Origin: Bacteroidales bacterium
GTDB taxonomy: Bacteria; Bacteroidota; Bacteroidia; Bacteroidales; UBA932
NCBI GenBank assembly: GCA_017626355.1
Contig: JAGAIY010000013.1
Span: forward strand, 1-64,000
DNA length: 64,000 bases
Direction of reading: 5' to 3'
The position numbers and the translations under genes are program-made. Position 1 is the first letter of the stretch. Each line of letters starts with the position of its first letter. Below, one piece after another: positions 33,433 to 52,091 of the stretch. Below the pieces are notes generated by a model. The model was not told the origin of the DNA. It worked only from the letters and a program-made list of their open reading frames with translations, and did no database searches.

Positions 33433-33723
33433 TTATTCTTTTTCAATCTTAAAGCCTAACTTGCTGATGAGTTTTAAAGTTCCAAGAGCAGTATCACGGT
33501 CATAAGCCTTTTCTACTTCGGGAAGTTCTGCATAGGGAACTAAACAAGGGTGCTGCTTCAAAACATCGCTACGCTCTTCGCCATAAGTCCATCCTTGCTC
33601 CATACGGCTTTGCGCCCACACCTCGTGAACGTTTTTCGCCATTTGTTCTATCAAAACATTCAATTCTTCTGGCAACTGGATATCACTTGTATCCATTGGT
33701 TGCGGGATGTAATTCTTTTTCAT
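33433..33723 (-). CDS. Stand-alone RyR-domain protein
   Basis: A 96-residue protein that is essentially one RyR domain, the repeat first known from ryanodine receptors. Diagnostic parts are IPQPMDTSDIQLPEEL, HEVWAQSRMEQGWTYG, CLVPYAELPEVEKAYDR and LISKLGFKI. It is closely related to the RyR domain in the protein encoded at 46995-48119. Bacterial RyR domains are found in conflict and signalling operons and are thought to recognise a ligand, possibly a nucleotide. It is the last gene of the cluster and lies 93 bases after the CHAT gene. Confidence 0.88.
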   Translation of the reverse strand: MKKNYIPQPMDTSDIQLPEELNVLIEQMAKNVHEVWAQSRMEQGWTYGEERSDVLKQHPCLVPYAELPEVEKAYDRDTALGTLKLISKLGFKIEKE

Positions 33724-33816
33724 TGTTCTTAGCTTTTAAGTTTATCATATAGAACAATTTTATTGATTGAATCTATCAAATGACGCATTAATATTTCCAC
33801 GCATTGAGTTTCTCTT

Positions 33817-36576
33817 TTATTTCAACCCATCCAACAAAATAAACGGAGCCCAATATTTTCCTTCTTTATATTCCATCGATTTTATTTCATTTTGGGCATC
33901 AAGAAGAGATTGTCGTTTTGATTTCCCCTTTGCTAAACCCTGATAGAAAGCAATCATAAGCTTGGCTGTACTTTCATCATAGACTGGCTTTAGACTCATT
34001 AAAAGAGAATGGACTCCTGCATTTTTGAAACCTCGCTGCAGACCAAATATGCCGTCAGTTCCTTTTCCTCCAATACCTGTATTGCAGGCAGAAAGAACAG
34101 CCAAATCACATTGACGGAGATTCATCTGGGCTACATCAGCAGCTGTAATGATGCCATCATTAAGAATGTCATCCGAGCCGACATTTGCACCACTCAAAGC
34201 AAGCAGACTATTATCCATCGCGTCAGTTTCTGCAATTTTATCATCCCCATCATACTCTCCATGCGAAGAAATATGTAAGATCATCGGATTCTTATCCGAT
34301 AGTTTGCGAAACTGCTTCTCTGTTGCTTTTCTACCATCATAAATATTGGTTTTAAAGACCTTCTTAACATAGGATTTTATGCCGTCAATCTCCTCCTTGC
34401 CATACTTTAACTGCCCAAAAGATATTCCTCCTCTTTTTTCTGCAACCAGTTCTGTATTGTAGTCAATATCACCAAATATGGTAATGGATTTTGAATCCAT
34501 TGTTTCGGAGTAGTTACGACAAAGTTCCTTTGTCGAGGATAAGCGATAAACTTCATATTTTTCAAAGAATGTCTGCTGGCCATCATTCAAATATTCGATA
34601 GCGATGTCGCTTAGGTTGTTATCAGGAGCAAAATATACTCGTTTCTTGCCAATAAGATGTTCCTGCATAACCCCCCATATAAGGTTATAGTATTGGCTGT
34701 TGTCATAAAGGTCTTCTTTATTTTTCAGATTCTTCAAAATAGCCTTTGTGCTTATAACAGACATTGCAGGTACTCCTTTTGATGTGAGTATCAGTGCCAA
34801 AATATAATTATCCTTATCCAGTGGTGATAATGGAACGGTAGTAAATTCGATAGCGACATCATGTTCCCCCAATTGTGATTGTATATCACGCCATGTATAT
34901 GAAAGATATTCGGTATAATCTCCATATGCAGCACATCCCGACATAAGCTTTTGCTGAAGAGATGAATTTTCCTGCTTCAGTGTCAGCACTTTCTGTAAGT
35001 TATCATCTGAAGGAGTTGTTTGTAATTCATCGATCTGCTGTTGATTTTCTTTGATCGTTTTATACGTTTTCGTCAGATCCTTGTCTCCATTCTGTTCCAG
35101 AATTTTTTCAAATTCAATAACTGAATTGAGCATAATACCTTTTGAAATCAGTTCCATATCGTATAAAACAGGGATATATAATGCCATTACATCAGTTTTA
35201 TCGTCTGGTATCGCGGCAATATTAAAACGGTAGTCATCGATATGTTGCTGCTGCTCATTCCATACTCGCCACCTGTCAACATCGGTCAGTAAAAGGAATT
35301 TTTCTTGGAGCATATTTCTGAGGTTCTCTGTGTAAAGGGTGAAATAATGAGCAGCCACGTCAAACTGATCAAGCTCATAATAACAACTCGCAATGGTATT
35401 CAGAGAGTTTGTATAAACCATCGTGCTAAGATATTTTTCTGTAACAGGAAGAGTCTTCAGTTCGCTATCCAGCAGACGACGCCACACATCTTTACGTTTG
35501 TTTTCTGCTTCTTGTTCCATCAGGTCTGCCGCATCATTATCACCAGCTCTACGTAAGCAGATGAGGAGTTCACTGTAGGTATTAGAGTATTTACTGTCTA
35601 GATCATGTGACTTATAAATATCACATGCTTTCTGTAAGTTTGATCTGGCTTCATCAAATTGTTTCAGACGGGCTTGCACTTTACCGACATCTTCCAATGC
35701 ATCTGCATGTTTCTCAGTATCTGGCATAAGCTCTTCGCACTTCTCAAGTTCTATTTGATATACATCTAAGGCTTCAGCATATTTCTGCTGACAGAACAGA
35801 GCATCTCCCAAACTGATTAAATGCAGTATATACTTCATTTTTCCGTCTTGAGTCGAACTGTCCTTAAATACATCCACAGCGACACGTGAATATTGTTCAG
35901 CTACCGCAAATTTTGATGAGAGCAGATAATTCTGTGCCGACCAATACATAGCATCACCATACTTCTCAATGTTACCAAGATTCTTCCACCTTTTTGCAGC
36001 AGAATGAAAATATTGGGCAGCTCCCACAAAATCACGAATGTCAAATAGAATTCTTGCGTATGCCTCTTCTACTTCCACACGCTGCTCTTCTGTTTCGCAC
36101 AACTCAAGTGATTCTTTGATATGAATTTTAGCCTGCACTTCATCACCTTGCATTATGTAATATTGCGCCCGTTCAAGCTTACATTTATAATCATTGCAGT
36201 CTTTCAAGAGTTCTTGTTGATTATGTTCTTCAATCACTCCCAACAGCCATTGTAACTTTTGTGGATCCGTATTTTCCGTATATACGGCAGAAAGACAATT
36301 GATAATCTGTTCATATGCTTTCCCGTGTTTCTTAACCTTGCCCAAAGCAACTTCCCAACAAGTGCCTGCCGAAATATAATCGTGAGCCATATAAAATAAT
36401 ACTGCCAGATCATGCATGGAAGTAGAGTCTACTTGAGCAAAATCCTGACTTAAGTATTGTTTAGTAGTCACTTTACCGCTTGTGGCCTCTGCATACATAG
36501 CTTTAGCCTGCTCTGTTTGTGCGAATGATACACATGTTAACGACATGAATATCAAAAACATCATAGATCTTTTCAT
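33817..36576 (-). CDS. Secreted TPR-CHAT protease
   Basis: A 919-residue protein with a cleavable signal peptide (MKRSMMFLIFMSLTCVSFAQ). Residues about 30-480 are TPR-like helix pairs, followed by a coiled-coil stretch. The C-terminal CHAT caspase-like domain (about 600-919) has the catalytic His in ILHISSHGEYD near 771 and Cys in VLSACNTGIGG near 829. CHAT proteases are activated by partner signals and cut host or gasdermin-like substrates in defence systems. Export to the periplasm is unusual among the defence CHATs I know and points to an envelope target (inference). Confidence 0.9.
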   Translation of the reverse strand: MKRSMMFLIFMSLTCVSFAQTEQAKAMYAEATSGKVTTKQYLSQDFAQVDSTSMHDLAVLFYMAHDYISAGTCWEVALGKVKKHGKAYEQIINCLSAVYTENTDPQKLQWLLGVIEEHNQQELLKDCNDYKCKLERAQYYIMQGDEVQAKIHIKESLELCETEEQRVEVEEAYARILFDIRDFVGAAQYFHSAAKRWKNLGNIEKYGDAMYWSAQNYLLSSKFAVAEQYSRVAVDVFKDSSTQDGKMKYILHLISLGDALFCQQKYAEALDVYQIELEKCEELMPDTEKHADALEDVGKVQARLKQFDEARSNLQKACDIYKSHDLDSKYSNTYSELLICLRRAGDNDAADLMEQEAENKRKDVWRRLLDSELKTLPVTEKYLSTMVYTNSLNTIASCYYELDQFDVAAHYFTLYTENLRNMLQEKFLLLTDVDRWRVWNEQQQHIDDYRFNIAAIPDDKTDVMALYIPVLYDMELISKGIMLNSVIEFEKILEQNGDKDLTKTYKTIKENQQQIDELQTTPSDDNLQKVLTLKQENSSLQQKLMSGCAAYGDYTEYLSYTWRDIQSQLGEHDVAIEFTTVPLSPLDKDNYILALILTSKGVPAMSVISTKAILKNLKNKEDLYDNSQYYNLIWGVMQEHLIGKKRVYFAPDNNLSDIAIEYLNDGQQTFFEKYEVYRLSSTKELCRNYSETMDSKSITIFGDIDYNTELVAEKRGGISFGQLKYGKEEIDGIKSYVKKVFKTNIYDGRKATEKQFRKLSDKNPMILHISSHGEYDGDDKIAETDAMDNSLLALSGANVGSDDILNDGIITAADVAQMNLRQCDLAVLSACNTGIGGKGTDGIFGLQRGFKNAGVHSLLMSLKPVYDESTAKLMIAFYQGLAKGKSKRQSLLDAQNEIKSMEYKEGKYWAPFILLDGLK

Positions 36577-36591
36577 TTTCCGGGTCGGTTT

Positions 36592-37239
36592 TTATTCTAC
36601 AATTATTGCTACACTTTTATCCTCTTGGGATTTATTGTCAATGGATATGTAAACCTTAGAATTCCCTTTCGGTACAGGGATGTTTTCAAGTTTACGATAA
36701 TTTGCTCCTTTAAATTCCTCTGAACTTATTTTATAAGGTCTGGATTCATTCCCATTTGCGTCTTTGACTATTACACTTAAGTTGATCAGACCATTCACTT
36801 CCGCGACTGTTGCGACATTGAAACTTCCTCCTCTATGACGCATGGCATATACAACTTTCCTTTCTCCTTTTATGCATTTTGTACATAGCTTTACATCGCC
36901 TCCTCGTTGTGCAGAAACTTGTTCTTCCGCATATTTCTTAGCTCGTTTATACACACTGCGTTCTTTCGCGACATCGCTCAAAAATTCTGGAGAGAACACC
37001 AAATGATCCTTAATAGATGCTTCATGTTTGACGTCAACCTCTTGTAAAATAAGTGGAGCCCATCTTAAGGATGTCAACAAACTTGCAGCTTCTTCGATTT
37101 CGTTTTGACTGCCCTCTCCAAAACTCATTGATGACTGGGCTAACTTGCAAGCCTCATACACATTATGAAAGTCTTCACTTTGTGCATAAGAGATGATACT
37201 GAATAAGGAACAAAACGAAATTAGTACTATTCGTCTCAT
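36592..37239 (-). CDS. Secreted protein of unknown function, 215 residues
   Basis: A signal peptide is clear (MRRIVLISFCSLFSIISYAQ). No domain was recognised. The first 100 residues are helical, with a lone pair of cysteines in LCTKCIKGE near 133. The rest is beta-rich. It starts 4 bases after the TIR-SUMF stop and ends 15 bases before the CHAT start, so it is certainly cotranscribed and may be a periplasmic partner of the CHAT protease. Confidence 0.7.
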   Translation of the reverse strand: MRRIVLISFCSLFSIISYAQSEDFHNVYEACKLAQSSMSFGEGSQNEIEEAASLLTSLRWAPLILQEVDVKHEASIKDHLVFSPEFLSDVAKERSVYKRAKKYAEEQVSAQRGGDVKLCTKCIKGERKVVYAMRHRGGSFNVATVAEVNGLINLSVIVKDANGNESRPYKISSEEFKGANYRKLENIPVPKGNSKVYISIDNKSQEDKSVAIIVE

Positions 37240-37243
37240 ATTG

Positions 37244-38704
37244 TTACTGATTTAAGGCCAATCGAAGACCAATTGTTTTACTTCTGTTATCTACGGATGC
37301 CACATCAGAATATGACACTGTTATTTCTTCACAAGAACTCATAAACGAACCTCCCTTGATACGTTTCCTGTTTTCATTCCCATCGTTGCACCATTCTGAC
37401 ACGTTTCCTGACATATCGTATAGTTCCAATCCATTCGGCTTTCTTGAGCCCACCTCATCAATGCTGCCGGTTTGTGATGATTCCTTAAAGTTGGCCACAT
37501 CTTCCGGACGGTTGCTGCCTGCATAGATCCAATCTGCATTTCCATTCTTTTTTGCAGCATATTCCCATTGAATTTCAGTCGGTAATATAAATAACAGACC
37601 TGTCAATACCTGAAGTCTTCTAATAAATTGCTGGCAATCGTTCCAAGAAACATCCGCAACAGGTAATTGCTCACTTCCTGATGTGGCATCCGACATAATA
37701 ATGTTCCATTCAAGTTCCGTGACCTCAAACTTGCCGATATAATAGTCTTTTTCAATCGTCACCTGACTCTCAGGATTTTCCAGACCGACAGGATTTTTAC
37801 TGCCCATGATAAATGTTCCTTTTTCAACGAACATCATATTATTAATCATTTTTTTGAGGATGCGTAACTGTTTTAATGAACAGTCATCGCTCCAATTGAT
37901 CCGAATGGAATCTTTTTTTCCTGTATTCAGAGCGTCATTTATTGGAGTCTTGTTCTGAAGCAATGTTTCAAAACAAGATAAACTGTCTACACACTCTGAA
38001 CGGAAGAAATATGTCTTTTGAACAAATTTTTCAAATTCAGATTGTGTGTAGCAATTTTGGAAAACATCCTTTTCCTTGCTCCATTTTATCAACCCAGCCA
38101 AGCCAATCATAAAAATAACAGATAATACCATAATTATGGCAGATTTTACCCGGCTGTGTTTTTGGGGACGACTTTTCAGACGTTTCACTATTTTTGGAAG
38201 AATGTCTTTAAACAAAAAGTCTTTAGTATCCTGATACCTTTCAGCATGCTGCTTTGTCAATAAGCATATATCATCAGTCAACTCTAAATTATCGAAATTA
38301 TAAGTTAAGGAATTGATTGGTACTATGGGAATGACATGTTTACCTTTAGCTAATGCTCTAGCTATTTCCAATCGAACAAAGTCTAAATTCCTTCCGGCGT
38401 TTTTCATCTCCATTTCTATGTGAGAAAACTCATCGATAGAACAATAGGCCAATCTATGATACCATCCTGTATCTTCCTCTCTAAGAGTAGACAAAGTTTC
38501 AGGGCTCAGAATAACAATAAAATCTTTACAGTTATCTAATCGCCTAAGAATTTCAATATCAAATCTGCCATCAAGATTTTCTCTATCGAAACTAACACGT
38601 CCTTTATATCCCTCATGTTCAAAAAGAGTAAAAAGGTGCTCTGCTTTATCTGCAGTTTCCTTCCTGCGATAGCTTATAAATATATCGTATATCAAATTCA
38701 TCAT
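37244..38704 (-). CDS. TIR - transmembrane - SUMF (formylglycine-enzyme-like) protein
   Basis: A 486-residue protein. The TIR domain is residues 5-175, with YDIFISYRRKE, VSFDREN and the Glu expected for NAD cleavage at position 113 in LDFVRLEIARAL. A transmembrane helix lies near 188-208. The C-terminal half (about 292-486) has the SUMF/FGE fold: FIMGSKNP, IGKFEVTELEW, LPTEIQWEYAAK, ELYDMSGNVSEWC, IKGGSFMSS. The Cys pair required by true formylglycine-generating enzymes is not seen, so this domain more likely binds a ligand outside the membrane. I infer an envelope sensor with a cytoplasmic TIR output. Confidence 0.88.
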   Translation of the reverse strand: MMNLIYDIFISYRRKETADKAEHLFTLFEHEGYKGRVSFDRENLDGRFDIEILRRLDNCKDFIVILSPETLSTLREEDTGWYHRLAYCSIDEFSHIEMEMKNAGRNLDFVRLEIARALAKGKHVIPIVPINSLTYNFDNLELTDDICLLTKQHAERYQDTKDFLFKDILPKIVKRLKSRPQKHSRVKSAIIMVLSVIFMIGLAGLIKWSKEKDVFQNCYTQSEFEKFVQKTYFFRSECVDSLSCFETLLQNKTPINDALNTGKKDSIRINWSDDCSLKQLRILKKMINNMMFVEKGTFIMGSKNPVGLENPESQVTIEKDYYIGKFEVTELEWNIIMSDATSGSEQLPVADVSWNDCQQFIRRLQVLTGLLFILPTEIQWEYAAKKNGNADWIYAGSNRPEDVANFKESSQTGSIDEVGSRKPNGLELYDMSGNVSEWCNDGNENRKRIKGGSFMSSCEEITVSYSDVASVDNRSKTIGLRLALNQ

Positions 38705-38722
38705 GCAACTTACATAAATAAT

Positions 38723-39424
38723 TTAAACATCTCTACTCAAATGCTCTTGTATACTTTTACTTCCATATTTCCACATCTTATGGCAGAACACCAAGAAAAC
38801 AATAAATAGGACACTACTAATCGCTGGAGTCACATTGATTATGAATAATATGGAATCGTAAAGTCCGTGAACGATGATAGGTGCAACTAATATAAGAGCT
38901 TTATTCTTTTTAGGTGTCTTGGGATAGAATTTTGCCAATGAATAATAATATCCCATCAGAATGCCGAAACAGAAATGTCCAGGCACTGCGAAGATTGCAC
39001 GAGCAATGCCTACTGACAAGTATGCCTCTTCATTGGAGAAGAGATACATTATGTTCTCTAATGCCGCAAAGCCAAGGGACACACAGACTGCATAGACAAT
39101 ACCATCCATTTTCTCATCAAAGTATGGATTCTTCCGCAACAATAGCCATAACATAAAGAACTTTGCGATTTCTTCAGGTATTGCAGCTCCAAAGAACGCA
39201 GTACTAATGCTTCCTAATATACTTGTCGCCTCAATAGGATATAGTCCAATTATTCCAAATGGTATTGACAGACAAAATGATACCGGTACCGATAAAATGC
39301 CAAATAGGAATGCTTTCACCAATTGTCCTGTCGGCTCCGGAGATTTTTTATCCTTATGGTATATGTAATACACTAGGATGACTACTGGAAGTAGTGCGAT
39401 TAGTAGGATTATATAGTTATTCAT
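38723..39424 (-). CDS. prsW: PrsW-type intramembrane metalloprotease
   Basis: A 233-residue protein with about seven hydrophobic helices. The motifs fit the family: EEIAKF near residue 81 (EExxx), HFCFGILMG near 150 and HGLYDS near 186. In Bacillus PrsW cuts an anti-sigma factor and releases its sigma factor. Because this operon also encodes a sigma factor and an anti-sigma-like protein, a comparable control step is plausible (inference). It lies 18 bases before the TIR-SUMF gene. Confidence 0.87.
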   Translation of the reverse strand: MNNYIILLIALLPVVILVYYIYHKDKKSPEPTGQLVKAFLFGILSVPVSFCLSIPFGIIGLYPIEATSILGSISTAFFGAAIPEEIAKFFMLWLLLRKNPYFDEKMDGIVYAVCVSLGFAALENIMYLFSNEEAYLSVGIARAIFAVPGHFCFGILMGYYYSLAKFYPKTPKKNKALILVAPIIVHGLYDSILFIINVTPAISSVLFIVFLVFCHKMWKYGSKSIQEHLSRDV

Positions 39425-39579
39425 TGATTTAAGTTTACAATTACATGAGTATTCTTTGAGGTTTTATACGAATTATCTTTATCAAATTATGAACAAAGCA
39501 TTACAAACTCTGACATGCTGTAATCACTTGGTCTCCATCTATTATCTTGCATGTTGCTATCACATTATTCTCTTCCATA

Positions 39580-41334
39580 TTACTCCAAAATATAAACTGG
39601 CATTTCATATAAACTATTATTTGTTGGTGAAGGATCTATCTCATTAGGCAATAGGGGCATATAAATATAACGGGATGGCTTTTTCACCACTTTTTTACCA
39701 TTGACAATATCTCCCTCTTTTATGTCGAAAATATTAGAAACTACCTTGTGCCCAGGAAAATCCATGGATAAATGTTTCATTATGCGATCTTCTGTCAGTA
39801 TTCTGTGTAAATTGCTGATATGTCCGTTACCATCCAAACTATCATTGTAGACAACCTGTTCCCAAAACTCCTCTGATAAAAACTTATCAGACAGCATCTC
39901 TACATAGCGTTCCATAAAGTCTGGCATGTCAATCACTTCACCAAGTTTTTCTATGGTTTCTTGCATCAGGTTGACTGCTTTCAAAAAAGGCTCTATCTGT
40001 TCCTCTGTCAATTTATTATTGTGGAAGTTATTCCGGAAGTCCACAAACTTATTGTTTAAATCACTCCAAAACTCTTCTGATTCATATAATTGATTTATTC
40101 TTTCCTGCACTTCTTCCTGGCTCATTCCTGCTTTATATAACTCTCTTACCATTATTTTGAGTACGAATTTCCCTTGTTCGAGAAGACCATTTTGGAATTG
40201 TCGTTCATTTCCAAAGACAATCTGACGCATTGCAATGAGAGAAAGTTTTGAATAAAGGTTTAAATCCTGTGGATGGCAATCTGCTAATATTGTACGGATA
40301 CTCTTAGCAATAGAATCATTAATAGGGACAGGCTTAATCTCTTCGACTCGGTCTTCTTTTGGGTAATACACCATAAGTTTCTTAAGAGCACATGGCGATG
40401 GTCGTTTATCTATCTTTTGATACACCAAATACGAGAAGAGTATTTGCTCACCCATTGTCCACCATGAATTTAAATAATCGTCGCTTGCATATATCCACAT
40501 TTCATCGCAATAGGAAATGTATTCTTTATCTATTATGCATAGCAATTGCCAGGCTTTCCATTGAGTCAGCAGTTCCGTGTTAAACACAAGGCTACCATTA
40601 TCTAAATATTTTACAGTGCGAGGTTCCCCATAGCAACCTATTTCAATTCTTCTGGCAAGTTCGGAAACGGAATACTTGTATTCGCTGTTTTCCTCAAGTT
40701 GTGCATATTTTGTTCGGAAACTGATAAACACAGAAGTTTCAGTAGCACGAATGGAATCATGCTCTGCTTTACTTGCTTTTAGGTAGTTGACTACATTCTT
40801 TATTCCTTTTGTACTGCGATCTCTTAATATATGAAAGTCTATTCTTGATAATTCGCTTTCTAACCATTTCAGAATTGATTCGTTGGACAAAGATTGTTGT
40901 TTATATGATGGGAATCCGCCTGTTTTATAGGTATAGATATTTAGTGGGAGATATGTTCTACTCACAACCAGCACATGCTCGAGAGGTGATTGCAGGGCAT
41001 TAGCAAGTCTATAGTTATTTATTTCATGATTATCGCCCTCTATAGAAGCATCAAATATGACCAAATCATCTTTATAGCACGATAAAATGCAATCGTTTAC
41101 TGTAACAGCGTATTTTGACTGATCGTAAACTTTAATCTTTATAGACTTTTTTATGTCGACATAACATACGCAATGCTCTTCCTCGTACGAATGTCCTAAA
41201 GCATCGTGAAAAAAGGTATCAAGGATGCCTTTCAATAATCCTATACCTTTTTCTGTAGGTAATGGGAAAATCGAAATAGTGTACAATGAAAAGGCATCCT
41301 TGATTTTGTTTAATACCGATTGAATACTACTCAT
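39580..41334 (-). CDS. TIR-like domain protein with unknown flanking domains
   Basis: A 584-residue protein without signal peptide or membrane helix. A divergent TIR-like segment spans about residues 200-305, with VFISFRTKYA, CDEMWIYASDDYLNSWW and a Glu at 296 in the expected catalytic place. The first 190 residues are alpha/beta and unassigned, and 380-500 is helical. The C-terminal part is unassigned. It starts 16 bases after the vWA-TIR gene ends, so both TIR proteins should be made together. Confidence 0.6.
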   Translation of the reverse strand: MSSIQSVLNKIKDAFSLYTISIFPLPTEKGIGLLKGILDTFFHDALGHSYEEEHCVCYVDIKKSIKIKVYDQSKYAVTVNDCILSCYKDDLVIFDASIEGDNHEINNYRLANALQSPLEHVLVVSRTYLPLNIYTYKTGGFPSYKQQSLSNESILKWLESELSRIDFHILRDRSTKGIKNVVNYLKASKAEHDSIRATETSVFISFRTKYAQLEENSEYKYSVSELARRIEIGCYGEPRTVKYLDNGSLVFNTELLTQWKAWQLLCIIDKEYISYCDEMWIYASDDYLNSWWTMGEQILFSYLVYQKIDKRPSPCALKKLMVYYPKEDRVEEIKPVPINDSIAKSIRTILADCHPQDLNLYSKLSLIAMRQIVFGNERQFQNGLLEQGKFVLKIMVRELYKAGMSQEEVQERINQLYESEEFWSDLNNKFVDFRNNFHNNKLTEEQIEPFLKAVNLMQETIEKLGEVIDMPDFMERYVEMLSDKFLSEEFWEQVVYNDSLDGNGHISNLHRILTEDRIMKHLSMDFPGHKVVSNIFDIKEGDIVNGKKVVKKPSRYIYMPLLPNEIDPSPTNNSLYEMPVYILE

Positions 41335-41350
41335 ATGCTATACACTGGCT

Positions 41351-43288: not shown

Positions 43289-43908
43289 CTAAAACGCTCT
43301 TGCTTTTAAGCAAGATTTATTATACTCAGCTATTTGATGGCGATAAATATATGATATCATAGAACGAAGTTTAATAGCACATTCCTTTTCTAAATCATCG
43401 AGATCTTTATAACTAATCCAATATCTATAATTATTAAAATAACGATTAAATGACATTTCAATATATTCAACATCCTTATTATGTATGTAATATTCATATT
43501 TTTTATTGAATAGTATAATATCATGTTTCCCATTATCATTAATATTTTGTTTAGCCTCATTGCAAGCTAAATCAAATTCTAAAGGAGTAATACCTGCTCC
43601 TTCCTTTTCACGATCCAATATAAAAATAATAAAACGTGTATTTTTTTCAGAAATCAATTGATTATAATCTCTCTGATCACAGAACACACTATCGTCATAG
43701 TTATAGTCATCTATATGAATATTGTATTGTATATAATGTCTCCTTAACTGTTTTATGACCATCCCCATTCGCGCGTGTTCGTTTCTTAATTTTGTTGAGC
43801 CAGCAATAAAAATGTTACAATCTATCCTTTGATCATAATTATTAATATTCCTATCACTCTGTGAATGCTTTTGAAGTATCAGTTTTTCAGATATTCGGTT
43901 CTATTCAT
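43289..43908 (-). pseudogene. DUF4062/TIR-like domain gene with a frameshift near its start
   Basis: The simple frame starts at 43768, but the same frame stays open upstream and encodes CNIFIAGSTKLRNEHARMG, the first strand and loop of the domain, with no ATG, GTG or TTG. An ATG at 43908 opens a short frame, MNRTEYLKN, that stops at 43879. One extra A in the run of five at 43883-43887 would join the two into one protein of about 206 residues starting 13 bases after the preceding stop. Either the gene is broken, the base is missing by error, or the run is slippery. The rest of the domain is intact (RFIIFILDREKEGAG). Confidence 0.7.
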
Positions 43909-43921
43909 AGGTCTTTATTAC

Positions 43922-44428
43922 TTACAACTTCACGCCACAATACGGACAGAACTTCATTCCTGCATCGTGTTTTCCACCACAATGAGGACAGAATGAAGAT
44001 ATCTCAGTCGGATTTATAACCTTAGGAGCAGGTATCTCGGCCTTAACAACGCTCTCTGCTAATAACAGAGCCGTGTCATCCAGATTGGCTTGCCGAACCA
44101 TTCCCCACAGCTGAGTAAGCAATACAGGCCAAGCTACAAAATACATTATCAAAGTTGGTATAAGTTGCTGACCGAAAATACCGATACCAGCATCGAAGGA
44201 CACTCTGTCTGACTCTGGCTTAAGAGTTACTTTAAGGGCTGTCTTAAGCCCTAAAACAGCCTTGAACATTCCTCCTTTTGTAAGTGAAATATCATAGGTT
44301 CCCAAATCAGACACCTGTACTTCCACTTCATATCCCTGTAGCTTAAAATGTTCGGTAATCTTATTAGCCATCGCAGGAATCAAAGATGGCTCAGCATTAA
44401 TTATCTTGCTTGTATTAAAAGTTCCCAT
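43922..44428 (-). CDS. Membrane protein with C-terminal zinc ribbon
   Basis: A 168-residue protein. The first 95 residues form a small alpha/beta domain (VEVQVSDLGTYDISLTKGG), followed by a hydrophobic stretch near 93-108 and a zinc ribbon with CPHCGG and CPYCG at the end. The ribbon closely resembles those at the ends of two neighbours. Function unknown; the set suggests a shared docking part. Confidence 0.7.
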   Translation of the reverse strand: MGTFNTSKIINAEPSLIPAMANKITEHFKLQGYEVEVQVSDLGTYDISLTKGGMFKAVLGLKTALKVTLKPESDRVSFDAGIGIFGQQLIPTLIMYFVAWPVLLTQLWGMVRQANLDDTALLLAESVVKAEIPAPKVINPTEISSFCPHCGGKHDAGMKFCPYCGVKL

Positions 44429-44430
44429 GG

Positions 44431-44679
44431 CTATCTTATTGATAGAAGTTCATTATAATTATAAGCGACATACAGAGCGTTCATCTCCGCAATAAGAGCC
44501 TGGATCATTTTCAGCTGCTCCTCTGTACAGATCTGTTGCAGGTTCTCTGCAATTGCAGTTACCTTTTCAGACTGTTCACGAACCTCTTCTTCAGTGACAA
44601 CACCATCCTCAAGTATCTTTTTCAAAGAGACATTATTCATCATAACGGATTCAAGGTCCAGGATATCTATCTTATTCAT
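44431..44679 (-). CDS. Small helical protein, 82 residues
   Basis: Starting with MNKIDILDL at 44679, directly after the M48 stop, it gives 82 residues. The longer frame would overlap the M48 gene. It is acidic and predicted helical, with EDGVVTEEEVREQSEKV resembling a short EF-like or TerB-like helix pair (weak). Function unknown. It ends 2 bases before the next gene. Confidence 0.6.
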   Translation of the reverse strand: MNKIDILDLESVMMNNVSLKKILEDGVVTEEEVREQSEKVTAIAENLQQICTEEQLKMIQALIAEMNALYVAYNYNELLSIR

Positions 44680-44683
44680 ATCT

Positions 44684-45559
44684 TTATAATTTATGTCCAC
44701 AATATTTACAGAATTTCCAACCAGAATCAACTGGACGTCGGCATGATGGGCATACTGACTCTGGAGCAGAAAGTAGATAGTTCTTTATTCTCCGATATTG
44801 CTCTGTATCTCCCCATTTCATTATCTCTCTGACTCGCACAGCAGAGAAAGGATGTGAGCGAGCCATCGTCACATATATCTGAAGAGTTTTGTTCCATGCG
44901 CCATCATTATATATATGATCATAAATGTCGGCCTGCTGCATCCATTCGTTCAAGTCAATCTTTGAAGTTATTTCCTTCGGGCCTCCTGATAATCTTGCCA
45001 TTGCAGAGGCAACAACTTGAGGAGATGTAACTATTGCTCCTGCCCTATCGCACGACAACTCACTCTTTCTATACCAATAGTACAATGCTAATTGGAATGG
45101 AAGAGCAAGTTTTCCTAGAAGTCCTAGACTATCAACGCCTCTCAAAACATACTCTGCCAAGCTATGATATAAAACATGACGACAGAGAATATGGCCACAT
45201 TCATGTGCAATGACTGCGTCAAGCTCCTCATCATTCAGAAGTTCTACAAGACCTGAGGTAATAGTTATATATATCTTGGTATCTCCGAAAGTCCATGCAT
45301 TAGGCATTGGATCCATTTCAAGATAGAATTCAGGTTCAGCAATTCCCAGACGCTTGCAGATTGGAGGAAGGTGATTATATAAATGAGGTAGCTGTGTAGG
45401 CGAAAGCCTTATGGTGGAGGCCATATTCACGCCATACTGCATCTGCTCCAAACCAATCTGGAGGAACTTCTTCACCAAGGCCGGGAAGCCTGGAATGCTC
45501 TCAAGCGTTCTTAACGCAGCCGCATCTTCTGGATGGATAAAATCTGAAGGGTTAATCAT
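44684..45559 (-). CDS. M48-type metallopeptidase with C-terminal zinc ribbon
   Basis: A 291-residue protein. The zinc motif is VIAHECGHILCRH near residue 122 and the third ligand is in SELSCDRAG near 178. Two hydrophobic stretches near 140-165 suggest membrane association. Unlike the M48 lipoprotein at 659-1462, it lacks a signal peptide and ends with a CPSC/CKYCG zinc ribbon, so it is probably cytoplasmic-facing. It could process operon partners such as the anti-sigma-like protein (inference). Confidence 0.85.
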   Translation of the reverse strand: MINPSDFIHPEDAAALRTLESIPGFPALVKKFLQIGLEQMQYGVNMASTIRLSPTQLPHLYNHLPPICKRLGIAEPEFYLEMDPMPNAWTFGDTKIYITITSGLVELLNDEELDAVIAHECGHILCRHVLYHSLAEYVLRGVDSLGLLGKLALPFQLALYYWYRKSELSCDRAGAIVTSPQVVASAMARLSGGPKEITSKIDLNEWMQQADIYDHIYNDGAWNKTLQIYVTMARSHPFSAVRVREIMKWGDTEQYRRIKNYLLSAPESVCPSCRRPVDSGWKFCKYCGHKL

Positions 45560-45622
45560 ATAAATGTAAAAAAGAGCTTATTTAATCATATTTATCACAT
45601 TCTGTAGTATGAATCTTAATAT

Positions 45623-46984
45623 TCAATCAATAATAATTATCGTATCATCTGTAGAACCCTCATAATTTTTGCCATTCCACTTTAATATTATATCATCACC
45701 TAAAACTATATCATGGTAGCCGTTGGATACAGAATGAGAAATACCAACACGATAATCACCATAATGACATGAGTATTCAATATCATTAATAATTAAATCA
45801 AACAACACCGAATTCCATCTAGCCCAATACTTTACAAGAAATTTTTCATTAATCCCATCATTATTTAAGTCATGTTCCATTACAATGACTTTATTTACAT
45901 CATCTTCTTCATTAAAATCTGTGTTTCTTACCTCTTTAACAACAGTAACTCCTTGTTTGTTTAATGTTTCAACCTTTTCAGCCTCACCTTGCTTCAATAT
46001 ATATCTTTCTTTTATCATGACATGTTCCTCCCTATTCATCCCGACATTACTTTCGATAATCAATACTGATAACACTCCATTCCAAATTTCTATTGTAGGT
46101 CTCTCCCATACACTTAAACCAAATTCATTAGAAACCTTAAAAAATCCGTCTCCACTATACTTAACAAAGAAATAAGAATTACCGATACCATTTCCCCCAA
46201 AAGCTTGTACATTTTCAACGAGAACATCATTAACTCCATCCATATCGAAATCTCTTTGTTCTATGACATTTAAGCATATATCTTTGGGTAAATCTATTTT
46301 ATATTCAACGTCATCAACTTTTGCAAACAAATCATCATAGATATCATCATAAACGTTATCTCTACTATAAAATTCAATATTAACAACGTCTTCTCGACTA
46401 GTGGTTTTATCAGCATGAATTAAATTTTGTTCATTATTCGACGGTGTGGCAATATCTAATAAATCCAGGTGACTTAATATTCCAACAATCAGATATATTA
46501 GCAATAATATAGTCAGAATTAGAACGAAAGGCCTGAGATGATTCCTTCTTTTATGTAAAAATCTCTTCTTTAACGTTTCATAGAAATCGTTGAAGTAATA
46601 TCTGTTATATTCTGGACCATTCTTTTTTGTCACATTAACGATGTCATCTGGAAGTCCATCAGGAAATCCTGTGACACCTGACAAAAAAACGGGAATTATA
46701 TTTTTTTTGTGTTTTAGCGCATGTGCTAGTTCACAACGCATCCAATCCTTTGTTGAGTCAAAACTATGATCTAAAGTTCTGTCAAAGGCATGTTTGTCGA
46801 CAATCAATATAAAGTCTTTACATTCTTCTATTCGAGACAATAGCTGAATATCGAAATCTCCGTTTCTTAATGTATCAATATCAAAACTGACTCTATAACC
46901 ATCACGAACAAGAAGATCATTAAGATGCTTTGCAGTATCATACCCCCCTTCTCGCCTATAACTTATAAAAATATCATATTTCAT
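45623..46984 (-). CDS. TIR - transmembrane - FG-GAP/VCBS-like protein
   Basis: A 453-residue protein. The TIR domain spans residues 1-145 (YDIFISYRREGG, VSFDIDTLRNGD, WMRCELAHAL with Glu 85). It is followed by a transmembrane helix near 155-175. The C-terminal part contains calcium-type repeats (DFDMDGVNDVLVEN, DLNNDGINEKF) typical of FG-GAP/VCBS beta-propellers. The layout matches the TIR-TM-SUMF protein at 37244-38704: cytoplasmic TIR with an external sensing domain. Confidence 0.85.
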   Translation of the reverse strand: MKYDIFISYRREGGYDTAKHLNDLLVRDGYRVSFDIDTLRNGDFDIQLLSRIEECKDFILIVDKHAFDRTLDHSFDSTKDWMRCELAHALKHKKNIIPVFLSGVTGFPDGLPDDIVNVTKKNGPEYNRYYFNDFYETLKKRFLHKRRNHLRPFVLILTILLLIYLIVGILSHLDLLDIATPSNNEQNLIHADKTTSREDVVNIEFYSRDNVYDDIYDDLFAKVDDVEYKIDLPKDICLNVIEQRDFDMDGVNDVLVENVQAFGGNGIGNSYFFVKYSGDGFFKVSNEFGLSVWERPTIEIWNGVLSVLIIESNVGMNREEHVMIKERYILKQGEAEKVETLNKQGVTVVKEVRNTDFNEEDDVNKVIVMEHDLNNDGINEKFLVKYWARWNSVLFDLIINDIEYSCHYGDYRVGISHSVSNGYHDIVLGDDIILKWNGKNYEGSTDDTIIIID

Positions 46985-46994
46985 ACAACTCCGA

Positions 46995-48119
46995 CTATTT
47001 CCAATCCATTTTCAGCTCCAATCCACATCTGTCACAGAAAACCTGATGCTTGTAAATAGGATTTCCGCACTGACGACAGAAGAATGATTCTTCTGAATCC
47101 TGGATGCGTTTCTTCAACACCTGATATAATTCAGTCTCTTCCCGCTTGATCAAGTCATATCCTAACTTTATCAATAGCTTGATGGTCTTGATCGCCATCT
47201 GACGATCATACTCCTTTTCGCTTTCGGGAAGCATGGAGTAAGGTATCAAGTCCGGGTTCTGCTTCAGTTCGTCATTGCGTACAGGGCCATATGTCCATCC
47301 TTCGGCCATACGGTTCTCAGCCCAAATTTCATGAGCATTTTCTGCGATTGCCTCCCGGAGTTCATTAAGGTCTTCTGACAGTTCGACATCAGAAATATCT
47401 ATTGGATTCGGAATATATTCATTCATATCTTTTGTACTGATGGTTACAAGGTAATTCTTTGAATCCGCCCATGCATCTGCAAAACGGCTGATAGGATAAA
47501 CATCCTCAATGTGCGGAGAATCAGGATCAAATAAAGTAATTCTGTCATTTTCTGCATCACAAGTCAGCACGACGACAGTATGATCTGGAATCTGTCCGAA
47601 CAACACATCCTCTTTCAGTTCTTCTACCGGATCTCCTATCAACTCTCCCCCATCGACCGCTACAATTAATTGACATCCTTCTCCAAGAGCCTTGACGATA
47701 TCTTCTGTTGTACATTTAAATCTTCTGTTAACAACGAGTCCGCACTTTTCCAGATGCCGTCCGATATTATGCAAAGCTGTACCCTCTTTCTTCTGCCATC
47801 CGTTCTTAATGGCATCCTGCAAAAGTTGTTTCTCATCAAAACCAAATCCCAATCTCGTAAGGATATATTTCTCACATTCCAAACAGCAATAATTCTCCTT
47901 TTCACAGTTTGCAGCAAGCGCAGTCATAGGCAAGTACTCGACATCTGATGTCAAGCTCAATTCCATATCTACAGCTTGGGAAATACGCATTATTTCCCTT
48001 AATTCATAATCATCGACGAGTGAGCGTATTATATCATTACTTTCCTGAGGTGTAGCATTGCCATCCAGATAAGCAGCCAAAACCTCTGGCGAAAACGTTT
48101 TATCCCCTGGCTTTTTCAT
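46995..48119 (-). CDS. Anti-sigma-like / C39-like / RyR / zinc-ribbon protein
   Basis: About 374 residues; an ATG at 48134 is an alternative start. Residues 1-60 resemble the short helical start of anti-sigma factors (SPEVLAAYLDGNATPQE). A papain-like C39-type fold follows (Cys in NYCCLECEKY, His in IPDHTVVVLT, Asp in LFDPDSP). Then comes an RyR domain (about 235-325, HEIWAENRMAEGWTYG, LPESEKEYDR) and a terminal zinc ribbon (CRQCG, CDRCG). It overlaps the sigma-factor gene, which supports a sigma/anti-sigma pair. The combination is new to me. Confidence 0.78.
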   Translation of the reverse strand: MKKPGDKTFSPEVLAAYLDGNATPQESNDIIRSLVDDYELREIMRISQAVDMELSLTSDVEYLPMTALAANCEKENYCCLECEKYILTRLGFGFDEKQLLQDAIKNGWQKKEGTALHNIGRHLEKCGLVVNRRFKCTTEDIVKALGEGCQLIVAVDGGELIGDPVEELKEDVLFGQIPDHTVVVLTCDAENDRITLFDPDSPHIEDVYPISRFADAWADSKNYLVTISTKDMNEYIPNPIDISDVELSEDLNELREAIAENAHEIWAENRMAEGWTYGPVRNDELKQNPDLIPYSMLPESEKEYDRQMAIKTIKLLIKLGYDLIKREETELYQVLKKRIQDSEESFFCRQCGNPIYKHQVFCDRCGLELKMDWK

Positions 48120-48672
48120 ATTTCTCCACTTCATTGAGCGCTACTTCGGTCAATGCCGCCACAGCACGCTTCTTAATGTTATACAAATTATCCACATTTA
48201 TTCTGAGCTCATCAGCAACAATCTTTGGCTCGGCATCATCCAGCAACAAACGTTTTATCACATATGCATACCTTCTGTTTGTCATATGTGTCAAAAGACT
48301 GCGAATATCCATTATTGCAGATGTCCTTCTTTCAGAATCAACCGTTTCCGTCCGCGCCGCACAATCTAAGAGAGCATCTTTTGAAACATTCTCTATCATT
48401 TTGTCACGCTTTGCAATGAAATAACGTATCGCAACAACCTTCATCCACTGATAGATTGAGCTTCTTCCTTCAAACTGTCTCAAACGATAAGCATCATTTT
48501 CCATCAGATACAGATAAAATTCATTGACAAACTCATCAAAATCAACCGGATATGAAAATATCTGACGAATAATGCTGATAAACAACGGACGGCAACGAGT
48601 GAAAAAGAACTCATCCGTCACCACATTGTCACGCTCAATCAATTTATCGACTATTTCCTGATCCGTCATCAT
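48100..48672 (-). CDS. ECF-type RNA polymerase sigma factor
   Basis: A 190-residue sigma-70 family protein. Region 2 is at about residues 22-95 (FDEFVNEFYLYLMEND, RSSIYQWMKVVAIRYF) and region 4 at about 125-180 (IVADELRINVDNLYNIKKRA). The linker between them contains no extra domain. It overlaps the channel gene upstream by 4 bases and the anti-sigma-like gene downstream. It is likely to transcribe this operon itself or a small regulon; a promoter with a different consensus should be sought near 52.09 kb. Confidence 0.87.
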   Translation of the reverse strand: MMTDQEIVDKLIERDNVVTDEFFFTRCRPLFISIIRQIFSYPVDFDEFVNEFYLYLMENDAYRLRQFEGRSSIYQWMKVVAIRYFIAKRDKMIENVSKDALLDCAARTETVDSERRTSAIMDIRSLLTHMTNRRYAYVIKRLLLDDAEPKIVADELRINVDNLYNIKKRAVAALTEVALNEVEKYEKARG

Positions 48673-50726
48673 ACATTCCTCATTACATCCAGAATATTTG
48701 TCACAATAGCTCTATCGTACTGAGCCGAGGAGTCCAGAAGTTCATCGTTCGGCGCAATATCCTTATGGTAGAAATTATCTTTCAAATGTTGACTGACTGT
48801 CTTAGCGTTATTGACAACATCTTCGTCGCGACTCTCCAACATCTTCTTTATTTCAGCTCTCCTGGACTTGAATAAAGGCTGTATGCCCAAAAGCAAACGC
48901 TCCATATTCCATCTGTTATGCTCTATCCGTACAAGGATATCAATATCAGCCTCAGATAGTTCTGTAGAGCTGTCCACGTTCTCCGGATCAATTCCGACAC
49001 AACGTAATTTAATTGGGATTGAATTGGCTGCATAAAGGTTTGACAGCTTATATACATATTCCAATCTGGTATTCCATTTCTCTTCCAGAACGTCTGCAGA
49101 TGCCATACCCGCATATGGGATACCGCTATTCTGCAACTGATACAGATAATTGATTCTCTTAGCTTTAACTATTCTTTTGCGGAAAAGCGGATCATAACAT
49201 TCATCCTTCATTCCGAATGGATACACATTGTCATATCGCTTTGTATTATGTGCGTACTTAAGAACTTCACCACTTAATGGCTGGTAAACAAAGACAGGTA
49301 TCGGATCAGGATTTGAATAAATGATTTCCGGCAGGTATAATGATGCAGCCACATTCCCGTCAGTATCATTCTCACATAATGCAATTGACAGATATTCTTT
49401 CTCGTTGCTTGCCCATTCATAGAGCAATGAACGGACATTATCAGATTCTATAGACCCATCAACAAATTCCCATTCTATATCCAGGAAGTCTCCATATTCA
49501 CTATGAGGTGATCGGATCTTATTCTTTTTGGCATCACCATAAATATCCCAGAAACGATAATATGCATGTGACAACCTGAAGATATTATCATAATGTCCAA
49601 GGAAGAAGTCCATTTCCTCCTTTATATCCGGAGCTATGAAACAAATCTTTGTTCTATTCCTGCCATTCTTGAAATTAGGGAAATGAGCAATATGGGCAAC
49701 CGTCGAAGCCATTGCATAGCTCATCTGTGTCATTCCATAAATGACAAATCGGACGGTCTTGTCTGATTCTTCAGTAATTCCGTCACGATCTATAGCCGGG
49801 AAGTGACATGGTGAATTGACATCAGCATGTGTACAATCAGTATTATATTCTCGAGACACCAGAACTCGTTGCGCCCAATTCTCCAGAGAGTTGATTATAT
49901 TAAGATATAGCCAGGTATCTTTCTCTTTCTTGCCGAACTGAAGCACATGATATGTCGAAACCCGATCGACAACCATATAGCATTGAACAGGTCGCTTTAT
50001 ATTCCCACATAATGATTTAACCAATCTCCAACACTCAAGATTAATGGAATCATGGTCATCTTCATTATCTTCTCCTAAAATGTATATGCTGTATGCCTCA
50101 TTAATCTGAACATTCCTGAGAGTCTGATCAATAATCCTGGAACCATTCAACCATGTCACATCCAGGAGATCCTCCAGATCAGGTATATCTGATAATATCT
50201 TGTCATGAAGCGTCTCTGTATCTTGTGTAGTCAGTACTACTATCTTTCTGCCCTCATGAACTTTAGTCTGGATAAACTCACGAAGCATATTCATAAGCAT
50301 AGAATTAGCTCCAAGGACAAGTACATGATCGTCAAAATTATAACGAACCCGGCCTTTCTTATAATTTTCTATTCGGTTACTTACAATATTTCCCAACACT
50401 GTAATAAGCATTGCAGTAAAGATTACCGCTCCCGTTAAAGTCACAAAGAACTGCAATGCAACCGGGAAGTCCTCTTTATCACTATCTCCGAATGAACCAG
50501 GATCCAACATCAGTTCCAATGTCCTTACAAAGGCCTCTTTGGAAGCGTCTGCCATGGTAACGTCATCAATAGTAGTATGTGAGAACACCATTACTGATGT
50601 CCAAATGAGCAGAAAAACAAGCGATAAGCCGCCAAGGAACAACACCTGACGACCCCACCCACTTGAAAATGAGCGATCAAACCATCGTACAAACCGATTC
50701 CAATATTTATTAGTACGGCTAATCAT
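48669..50726 (-). CDS. CASTOR/POLLUX-like ion channel with RCK domain and RyR-like tail
   Basis: A 685-residue protein. Two membrane helices (about residues 27-49 and 90-115) flank a loop that may form the pore. They are followed by the family signature VLGNIVSNRIENYKKGR and an RCK/TrkA-N Rossmann domain (DDHVLVLGANSMLMNML near 128). A second RCK-like unit lies near 320-480. The C-terminal 100 residues (IEHNRWNMERLLLG, DSSAQYDRAIV) match the edges of an RyR domain but lack its centre. CASTOR and POLLUX are cation channels. I infer ligand gating by the tail. Confidence 0.82.
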   Translation of the reverse strand: MISRTNKYWNRFVRWFDRSFSSGWGRQVLFLGGLSLVFLLIWTSVMVFSHTTIDDVTMADASKEAFVRTLELMLDPGSFGDSDKEDFPVALQFFVTLTGAVIFTAMLITVLGNIVSNRIENYKKGRVRYNFDDHVLVLGANSMLMNMLREFIQTKVHEGRKIVVLTTQDTETLHDKILSDIPDLEDLLDVTWLNGSRIIDQTLRNVQINEAYSIYILGEDNEDDHDSINLECWRLVKSLCGNIKRPVQCYMVVDRVSTYHVLQFGKKEKDTWLYLNIINSLENWAQRVLVSREYNTDCTHADVNSPCHFPAIDRDGITEESDKTVRFVIYGMTQMSYAMASTVAHIAHFPNFKNGRNRTKICFIAPDIKEEMDFFLGHYDNIFRLSHAYYRFWDIYGDAKKNKIRSPHSEYGDFLDIEWEFVDGSIESDNVRSLLYEWASNEKEYLSIALCENDTDGNVAASLYLPEIIYSNPDPIPVFVYQPLSGEVLKYAHNTKRYDNVYPFGMKDECYDPLFRKRIVKAKRINYLYQLQNSGIPYAGMASADVLEEKWNTRLEYVYKLSNLYAANSIPIKLRCVGIDPENVDSSTELSEADIDILVRIEHNRWNMERLLLGIQPLFKSRRAEIKKMLESRDEDVVNNAKTVSQHLKDNFYHKDIAPNDELLDSSAQYDRAIVTNILDVMRNV

Positions 50727-51211
50727 TTCTTTTTGAGAGAGTTGAGAGTATCTTGTATGACATATTGTAACATATTGTTCTTCAAGTCATCAACAGCCTT
50801 CTCAGCCAACATGTTTCTTTCATTGGTATCACACTTCCCCCTAGCAATCTCCTGATTTCGACCTTCATTGTGCAACACACTTATTTTCAAGAAAAAAACT
50901 CCTGCAAGAACAAGTATAAGAGTCGTAAGAACCAACACTACAATTAAAACAAGAGCTATATTGTTACACATACGTGGTGTACTATCGTTGACCGGTTCAA
51001 ACATAAAAGCATATTTCAATACTTCCCAAATGACAAAACCATATAAGCCCAACAATATACCCATGCCAACATATGTCCATCCATGCCAGCAACACTTAGC
51101 TTTACGAATGCATCCTTCCTTCTGAGGGATTTCACATTTTATATCTTTTAGAGCTCGAGATACAAGCAGTCCGTTTATCTCATCAAGTTCTTTATTAAAA
51201 TCTTCTGTCAT
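50723..51211 (-). CDS. Two-helix membrane protein, 162 residues
   Basis: Hydrophobic helices at about residues 47-68 and 85-110, an N-terminal cytoplasmic part with Cys-rich CIRKAKCCW near 34, and a helical C-terminus. No family recognised. It overlaps the channel gene by 4 bases, so it may be an accessory subunit. Confidence 0.65.
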   Translation of the reverse strand: MTEDFNKELDEINGLLVSRALKDIKCEIPQKEGCIRKAKCCWHGWTYVGMGILLGLYGFVIWEVLKYAFMFEPVNDSTPRMCNNIALVLIVVLVLTTLILVLAGVFFLKISVLHNEGRNQEIARGKCDTNERNMLAEKAVDDLKNNMLQYVIQDTLNSLKKK

Positions 51212-51223
51212 ATGGCTTTGATT

Positions 51224-52063
51224 CTAAGAATTAGTTTTCAATATTTCTGTCAATTTGACACATGCTTTTTTAATGATTTCTTCCGAAGTCGTATTATCCA
51301 AAGTTGTAAATACTGGCTCATATACTCTAATTTCTTCTGGAATTTCAACATTAGAGACTATCGCATATACCCCAATTGTATCATATAGGTATGACAGTAC
51401 GGAAGATATACGTGACTGCACATCCATAATGACACTTGAACAAGAAAGGATCGAAAAGAATCTTTCAAAAAAAGCATACATTTTATTAGCACAGGTTTGC
51501 TCCAAATATTCAATCATGTACATTCGATACATCAGGATATCATCCTTATTGCTATTTGCCAATCGCTCAGCAAAAGTTCGTTTTTCAGCATTTTTAAAAG
51601 ATTTCGAGATAGTCTCAGTATCCATAATGTCCTGCATATTTCTATATTGCTCAGCGCACAGACTTATATTTGTTAAGGCACAATTAATACTCTCGGGAAG
51701 GTTCACTAAACCATGATTCCAGGCATAAACCTCAACTCTTTCAAGAAACACTTGCTCTGAAAGCTGTATATAACTATTCAAATCAATTGCATCAATGAAT
51801 TTCTGATATTCTGATTCAATAACATCAACAATATCCGGACTCATCCAAGCTGGAAGGATATCAACAAAGTCACCCTGATCATCCTTAAATGCATCAAGAG
51901 GAAGGTACTTATAAATTATTTCACGAATCTTACGCTTACAATCATTATATAAAGTTAGTGCCTTATCTGTCGGACCGACACCGCATATATCATACAAAAT
52001 TGCAGCTATTTCCGACACATCATGTACAGGCCTCCGAAGAAAAAATTGATATAGTTTGTCCAT
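51224..52063 (-). CDS. Helical protein of unknown function, first gene of the cluster
   Basis: The ATG at 52063 gives 279 residues; a TTG nine bases upstream is also in frame. It is soluble and mostly helical with no recognised domain. It lies 12 bases before the two-helix membrane gene. As the promoter-proximal gene it may be a regulator or an adaptor. Confidence 0.65.
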   Translation of the reverse strand: MDKLYQFFLRRPVHDVSEIAAILYDICGVGPTDKALTLYNDCKRKIREIIYKYLPLDAFKDDQGDFVDILPAWMSPDIVDVIESEYQKFIDAIDLNSYIQLSEQVFLERVEVYAWNHGLVNLPESINCALTNISLCAEQYRNMQDIMDTETISKSFKNAEKRTFAERLANSNKDDILMYRMYMIEYLEQTCANKMYAFFERFFSILSCSSVIMDVQSRISSVLSYLYDTIGVYAIVSNVEIPEEIRVYEPVFTTLDNTTSEEIIKKACVKLTEILKTNS

Positions 52064-52083
52064 GTCAATCAAGGTTATCCCTA

Positions 52084-52091
52084 CAAATATA
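52084..52091 (-). promoter_or_regulatory. -7 element at the head of the TIR/RyR operon
   Basis: TATATTTG on the minus strand, 20 bases upstream of the first gene. It lies 15 bases from the divergent -7 box at 52107-52114, so the two promoters overlap and could be controlled together. Confidence 0.55.

Follow-up and report, generated by a model that had tools for sequence, protein, structure and literature searches.

A low-GC insertion in a Bacteroidales genome and its candidate TIR-to-RyR signalling cassette

We analysed positions 1-64,000 of the forward strand of contig JAGAIY010000013.1 (assembly GCA_017626355.1; hereafter the window), which belongs to the 1.70 Mb, 74%-complete genome of an uncultured Bacteroidales bacterium (UBA932). 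The window holds a run of 17 consecutive minus-strand open reading frames (ORFs), from 52,072 (TTG start) or 52,063 (ATG start) down to 33,433, in which TIR proteins are encoded together with a standalone RyR protein, an RCK channel with a divergent RyR tail, and a sigma factor whose anti-sigma-like partner also bears an RyR domain. We found that this gene order recurs in relatives, that TIR and RyR genes lie together far more often than expected, and that the block lies in a low-GC insertion. With roughly even confidence, we regard it as a horizontally exchanged Bacteroidales signalling cassette that serves immunity or alarm through a signal passed from TIR to RyR.

Gene order, insertion and TIR-RyR co-location

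The initial annotation had described seventeen consecutive genes on one strand, mostly overlapping or less than 70 bases apart, and both points held: 13 of the 16 junctions are overlaps or gaps below 70 nucleotides (nt), and the other three measure 93, 153 and 155 nt. A Pfam scan of all 17 proteins, with NCBIfam used for the sigma factor, returned TIR, RyR, Slo-like RCK, M48, PrsW, FGE-sulfatase and CHAT over cut-off (Table 1). All five TIR_2 matches and both RyR matches of the genome fall within 33.4-55.5 kb of the window.

The same annotation had proposed looking for the neighbourhood in other genomes, where we found it kept. Counting the window's own genome, relatives of the channel occur in 13 of 101 genomes and, in a separate search of genome contigs, at 29 confirmed loci out of 39 candidate stretches, relatives of the sigma factor in 15 of 393 genomes of the order, and relatives of the 584-aa protein in 2 of the same 393, the second being G373; gene orders were compiled by hand from the locus annotations. 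G373, from another family of the order, shares ten genes with the window in the same order and one direction. Its series reads channel (25% identical to the window's), sigma factor (70%), anti-sigma-C39-RyR protein (60%), a 571-aa protein without family, a transglutaminase-kinase protein, 584-aa protein (99%), PrsW (90%), TIR-FGE (72%), 215-aa protein (66%), TPR-CHAT (72%), a TIR protein and a lone RyR protein. The C-terminal part of the transglutaminase-kinase protein is 96% identical to the window's vWA-TIR protein, its TIR match covering 48 residues and staying below cut-off. Counterparts of the window's M48, 82-aa, 168-aa and TIR-TM (transmembrane) genes were not found in G373, whereas this genome was the only one to yield matches to the CHAT and 215-aa proteins, for which the loci compared first gave none. 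Six more loci (L073, L040, L032, L042, L074 and L079) hold, whole or in part and uninverted, a core of channel, sigma, anti-sigma-C39-RyR, M48, 82-aa and 168-aa genes; in the gene calls, RyR is missing from L079, the 82-aa gene from L073, the 168-aa gene from L042, and a complete channel gene from L042, L074 and L079. Together with the co-location described below, this colinearity rules out a chance array.

The GC content is 0.32-0.40 across 32-56 kb and 0.46-0.53 outside 28-58 kb. In the relative G007 (L092), the GH25-MORN gene (73%) comes directly after the PGI gene (95% identical), whereas 30.8 kb separate the two in the window; the block lies in an insertion, and G007 shows the empty site. 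The site looks variable, although only two of the nine stretches fetched include genes of both flanks. Between the PGI and PMI genes, G024 carries about 4 kb of other genes, including a dynamin-like one. In G021 (L093, G021:C11:60001-80000), the flank of PGI where our cassette would lie carries a different one: a sigma factor sharing 49% identity with ours, a SIR2-like gene (below cut-off), TIR and nSTAND1 genes, and a relative, at 26% identity, of the 584-aa protein. SIR2 and TIR lie there in overlapping frames.

These data bear on the possibility that two or more independent modules share the insertion site with no joint function, channel-sigma-anti-sigma-M48 upstream and vWA-TIR/584-aa/PrsW/TIR-FGE/CHAT downstream. 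The two longest gaps divide the run, and a different sigma/SIR2/TIR/STAND cassette adjoins PGI in G021. The downstream block aligns with G373 at 81% DNA identity over 8.4 kb, whereas the channel proteins are far more diverged, and therefore the histories of the two blocks differ; the 584-aa protein, moreover, was found in these two genomes only (2 of 393). However, the blocks occur together and in one order in both families, two loci (L035 and L028) have PrsW, RyR and TIR (and also TIR-FGE in L035) in the run of the channel without a sigma factor, and overlapping ends tie together the channel, sigma and anti-sigma-like genes. We consider such an independent assembly rather improbable.

TIR-RyR co-location was assessed in 40 genomes with channel or sigma relatives, of which 28 have strong RyR matches (38 of 42 RyR rows were used and four weak or partial ones excluded, hence 28 and not 30 genomes). 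Within these 28 genomes, 35 of 65 TIR_2 matches lay at most 10 kb from an RyR domain, against 0.72 expected under uniform placement, and they came from 14 genomes. As a control, the type I restriction S subunit (hsdS) gave 0 of 39. The figure for nSTAND1 was 4 of 10, in three genomes. G000 and G428 have every TIR_2 match (5/5 each) within that distance. Poisson and Fisher values assume independent matches and, since TIR genes cluster, are indicative only. Defence-island clustering as the sole cause of the link is made unlikely by the hsdS result, which comes from a single control family. A phylum-wide survey found RyR in 27 of 395 genomes, our own included, 20 of them from one genus; it was not used in the co-location test because of this dominance and because the matches outside our genome were weaker (E 7e-13 or worse). 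Many genomes of genus g261 have two weaker tandem RyR matches in one frame of about 900 aa, which is another bacterial RyR architecture.

Among 38 channel loci, the window included, the chained same-strand run contains RyR in 20, TIR in 12 and both in 9. This count omits L018 (which overlaps L017), L054 and L055 (no RyR tail) and L046 (same contig as L028); L022 has no channel gene in the gene calls. The figures are an undercount, the gene caller having missed the anti-sigma-type gene of L032. At other loci, the same parts stand beside SIR2-TIR proteins and nSTAND1 proteins with LRR/WD40 matches. In L074:9490-17595, a SIR2-TIR fusion and an nSTAND1 protein come after the sigma core. The run in L016:9968-18717 consists of channel, TIR, an nSTAND1 protein of 1465 aa that matches LRR and WD40, and an RyR protein.

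RyR domains, their carriers and the TIR proteins

The three RyR or RyR-like domains of the initial annotation were all recovered, two by Pfam (PF02026, the family of RyDEP and the R12 domain; 46995-48134 and 33433-33723) and the third in the tail of the channel, which matches RyR in profile-profile comparison (E 1.9e-5) and is a divergent RyR domain as judged by its family: 9 of 25 homologous channel tails match Pfam RyR, the best at 8e-7. The channel has two TM segments by hydropathy, a pore loop with DPG (D and G each in 21 of 24 rows) and an RCK domain. A profile of it hits DMI1, CASTOR, BK and a TrkA-domain channel; two TM segments and an RCK domain are common to CASTOR/DMI1, GsuK-type TrkA-domain and BK channels and to ours. 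Unlike them, it has a C-terminal RyR domain and carries DPG(N/S) where the usual K+ filter sits. Carriage of the channel by plasmids or viruses was not borne out: there was no match in PLSDB, and of two stretches in viral contigs that fitted a pattern neither was confirmed.

The standalone RyR protein matches solved structures titled putative ryanodine receptor, 3NRT among them. It has, at identical spacing, the residues H75, W78, H100 and D117 of RyDEP, a phage RyR-domain protein which, according to a 2026 preprint, cleaves TIR-made 2'/3' cyclic ADP-ribose (2'/3'cADPR), a ligand also bound by six of eight phage homologues (PMC13232231). Outside the channel and C39-linked groups, 18 of 19 RyR domains have all four residues. 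In the channel family, their counterparts occur in 38, 40, 36 and 38 rows, respectively, of 42, a set in which three rows have no tail, one is masked and one is a paralogue. The window's RyR domains share the fold of RyDEP, and the standalone one also its four ligand residues; they differ from that phage protein in lying in a chromosomal insertion beside TIR genes and in being fused also to a channel and to an anti-sigma-like protein (PMC13232231). RyR-like matches occurred in 171 phage records, two of them spanning at least 80% of the query, and in 7 plasmid records.

The sigma factor predicted initially was supported by NCBIfam, at a score slightly below the family cut-off (Table 1). For its neighbour, the initial reading as a likely anti-sigma protein draws on homologues only: in 15 of 16 sigma matches the adjoining gene is a member of the anti-sigma-like family (three by the N-terminus only), six of these carrying RyR, and zf-HC2 appears below cut-off in two homologues (L081 and L077). 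The window protein itself has no Pfam match in this part. Its C39 reading rests on Peptidase_C39_2, over the Pfam cut-off in two homologues. The sigma gene overlaps the anti-sigma-like gene as in pairs of extracytoplasmic function (ECF) sigma and anti-sigma factors; in contrast to the latter, the partner in the window bears C39-like and RyR domains and has no TM segment by hydropathy. Two proteases had also been named as possible regulators, and the M48 and PrsW domains are both over the Pfam cut-off.

Pfam likewise recovered the three TIR proteins described initially (45623-46984, 41351-43258 and 37244-38704). A fourth, TIR-like protein was not confirmed: if 43289-43768 was meant, comparison with a profile built from the TIR domains of the window gave no match (hhalign probability 0.2%). 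Two further TIR genes, absent from that description, adjoin the run, one on the plus strand (52112/52166-52648) and a TIR-TPR gene (52903-55527). Relatives of the divergent plus-strand gene adjoin channel genes, for example in L021 (50%). One Glu, presumably catalytic, is invariant across the five TIR domains of the window. Both the TIR-TM and the TIR-FGE protein have a single hydropathy-predicted TM segment between the TIR domain and the C-terminal part, a receptor-like layout with the large C-terminal part probably outside. Taken with the secreted CHAT and 215-aa proteins, this layout suggests that sensing may take place at the envelope. The secreted CHAT protease of the initial annotation was upheld by its domain match, by HISSHG and LSACNT motifs and by a signal-peptide-like start, and the vWA module matches the 41351-43258 protein weakly, at 21.5 bits, below the cut-off of 23.8.

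The head of the run had been called promoter-like. A TAnnTTTG box, which we take to be the Bacteroidota -7 element, begins 28 nt before the ATG at 52063 that opens the run; a sigma-70 promoter scan of 32500-52400 showed no excess (70 found vs 77.1 +/- 8.3 in shuffles). In a comparison of nine loci for a shared sigma-type promoter, four dyads were common to four loci, against 0-2 per block shuffle (n=20). We did not count this slight excess as a motif, given the AT-richness of the dyads and maxima of up to 5 in shuffled sequence.

A possible TIR-to-RyR circuit, its rivals and known systems

Tentatively, and as something we find possible rather than probable, we propose a bacterial TIR-to-RyR circuit in which the ADP-ribose messenger of TIR enzymes, some of them receptor-like, would gate the RyR-tailed channel and, through the RyR anti-sigma protein, an ECF sigma regulon. 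In our main reading, held with the roughly even confidence given above, triggered TIR proteins would convert NAD+ to an ADP-ribose-type messenger. The RyR tail of the channel would read it, and channel opening would upset ion gradients and halt growth; the RyR domain of the anti-sigma-like protein would read it as well and thereby release the sigma factor. The standalone RyR protein might buffer or destroy the signal, and M48, PrsW, the C39-like domain and the secreted CHAT protein could add proteolytic control or execution. We call the cassette immune by analogy, from its partners (STAND NTPases and SIR2-TIR) and from published RyR biochemistry, and an anti-phage role would fit that label.

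Several observations weigh against this main reading. The window's own channel tail has no Pfam RyR match by itself, the anti-sigma part of the 46995-48134 protein has neither a TM segment by hydropathy nor a Pfam match of its own, and Thr or Asn replaces H100 in 8 of 9 C39-linked RyR domains, with Asn in the window. Among the nine loci compared, a convincing shared sigma-type promoter is absent. The genomes of the co-location set were selected for a channel or sigma gene. Of the 40, 10 have no TIR_2 match, including the 99%-complete G080, although TIR_2 overlooked at least one TIR (L023) that a profile built in this analysis found. At 15 of the 38 channel loci the chained run contains neither RyR nor TIR, and TIR is found in only 12. 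Of the single integrated immune or stress system first proposed, the neighbourhood and the TIR-RyR co-location are borne out in relatives, but the locus is modular and not one fixed system.

The strongest rival holds that RyR senses ordinary adenine nucleotides (ATP, ADP or metabolic ADP-ribose), that the channel and the sigma/anti-sigma pair make up a circuit responding to energy or envelope stress, and that the TIR genes are frequent, dispensable neighbours. Its strength comes from the animal R12 domain, which binds AMP-PCP and ADP (PMC12627627), and it would accommodate the 11 of 38 channel loci with RyR but no TIR in the run, as well as the genomes without TIR_2. We nevertheless hold it to be unlikely, as the co-location far exceeds expectation with a negative control, extends to every TIR_2 match in G000 and G428, and accords with phage RyR proteins acting on cADPR signals (PMC13232231).

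The TIR-to-RyR circuit would differ from the systems closest to it. With Thoeris, the window shares TIR proteins that could, in principle, make an ADP-ribose-type messenger for a separate effector. The Pfam matches of the 17 run proteins include no ThsA (SIR2-SLOG or macro domain); the reader would instead be RyR, and a sigma/anti-sigma pair is added. As a Thoeris candidate, the locus thus has a ThsB-like TIR and lacks the ThsA effector. When PADLOC was applied to nine of the 17 run proteins and to the neighbouring TIR-TPR protein, only the four TIR proteins among them matched, almost always through the TIR part, three of the four with weak ThsB matches. With vWA-MoxR ternary conflict systems, as presented in the main text of their description, the window has in common vWA, TIR, FGE/FGS-like and peptidase parts; no MoxR AAA ATPase or VMAP was seen in the run, whose neighbour at 32095-33252 is an ATPase_2, and RyR, PrsW, RCK and sigma factor have no occurrence in that main text (PMC7159879).

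Bacterial RyR channels or RyR anti-sigma proteins were not treated in the literature searched, as judged by titles and abstract openings, subscription literature lying mostly outside this view. The novelty of single associations is uncertain, because Burroughs et al. in 2015 (NAR) may discuss RyR contexts. The preprint describes phage RyR-domain proteins that bind or cleave TIR-made cADPR signals and leaves open what RyR does elsewhere (PMC13232231); the present locus, where bacterial RyR domains neighbour TIR enzymes and form part of a channel and of an anti-sigma-like protein, is a candidate answer. If the proposal is true, it would constitute an immune circuit running from TIR both to a channel and to transcription, a natural relative of the cADPR control of animal ryanodine receptors. 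It would offer a tractable bacterial model for the cADPR gating of these receptors and an effector type distinct from ThsA, and a nucleotide alarm could reset transcription.

Minor features of the inserted region

C-terminal zinc ribbons were found in 7/7 core M48 proteins and 6/6 168-aa proteins, the window included, and on the anti-sigma-C39-RyR proteins in four cases by pattern and two more by eye, four being without. Three neighbouring proteins in window 43922-48134 have similar zinc-ribbon ends, perhaps a shared docking tag. In L072:12863-15550, a counterpart of the vWA-TIR protein has transglutaminase and kinase domains in place of vWA, and its TIR domain is shortened.

Table 1. Features of the inserted region and its flanks, in window coordinates (E, E value).
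Feature	Position	Strand	Evidence or remark
GH25-MORN gene, flank of insertion	25982-27262		
Inserted region between GH25-MORN and PGI genes	27263..58022 (approximate ends)		GC, empty site in G007
Two WG-repeat proteins near one insertion end	27316-29719		relatives in L028, L035 and G373 stretch
ATPase_2 gene just downstream of run, within insertion	32095-33252		no relative in loci first compared
Standalone RyR protein, 96 aa	33433..33723	-	RyR E 1e-36; four RyDEP residues, same spacing
TPR + CHAT protein, 919 aa, signal-peptide-like start	33817..36576	-	CHAT E 1.1e-44; HISSHG and LSACNT motifs
215-aa protein, signal-peptide-like start	36592..37239	-	66% identical in G373
TIR-TM-FGE-like protein, 486 aa, TM at 188-206	37244..38704	-	TIR_2 29.0 vs 28 bits; FGE-sulfatase E 1.8e-26
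PrsW-family membrane protease, 233 aa	38723..39424	-	PF13367 E 2.4e-38; 90% identical in G373
584-aa protein without family	39580..41334	-	99% identical in G373; 2/393 order genomes, own included
vWA (weak) + coiled region + TIR protein, 635 aa	41351..43258	-	TIR_2 E 4.8e-14; VWA E 3e-4, below cut-off
159-aa protein without family	43289..43768	-	TIR-like reading not confirmed
168-aa protein, C-terminal zinc ribbon	43922..44428	-	matches in 5 loci
Small conserved protein, 82-99 aa depending on start codon	44431..44730	-	matches in 5 loci
M48 metalloprotease with zinc ribbon, 291 aa	44684..45559	-	Peptidase_M48 E 1.7e-18; HECGH
TIR protein, 453 aa, one TM segment at 153-171	45623..46984	-	TIR_2 E 8.8e-11
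Anti-sigma-like + C39-like + RyR + zinc ribbon protein, 379 aa	46995..48134	-	RyR E 3.2e-33; rest from homologues
ECF-type sigma factor, 190 aa	48100..48672	-	TIGR02937 E 2.8e-10, 40 bits vs cut-off 42.9
RCK channel, 685 aa, two TM segments, divergent RyR tail	48669..50726	-	Slo-like RCK E 4.5e-9
Small protein, 162 aa, two hydrophobic segments	50723..51211	-	hydropathy; found in no other locus compared
Protein without family, first gene of run (ATG 52063, TTG 52072)	51224..52072	-	no Pfam match over cut-off; iterated-profile matches in 3 loci
TIR protein, 160 aa (178 aa from TTG at 52112), divergent from run	52166..52648	+	TIR_2 E 4.2e-21
TIR protein with weak TPR/Sel1-like repeat matches, 874 aa	52903..55527	-	TIR_2 E 3.7e-19
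PGI gene, flank of insertion	58023-59375

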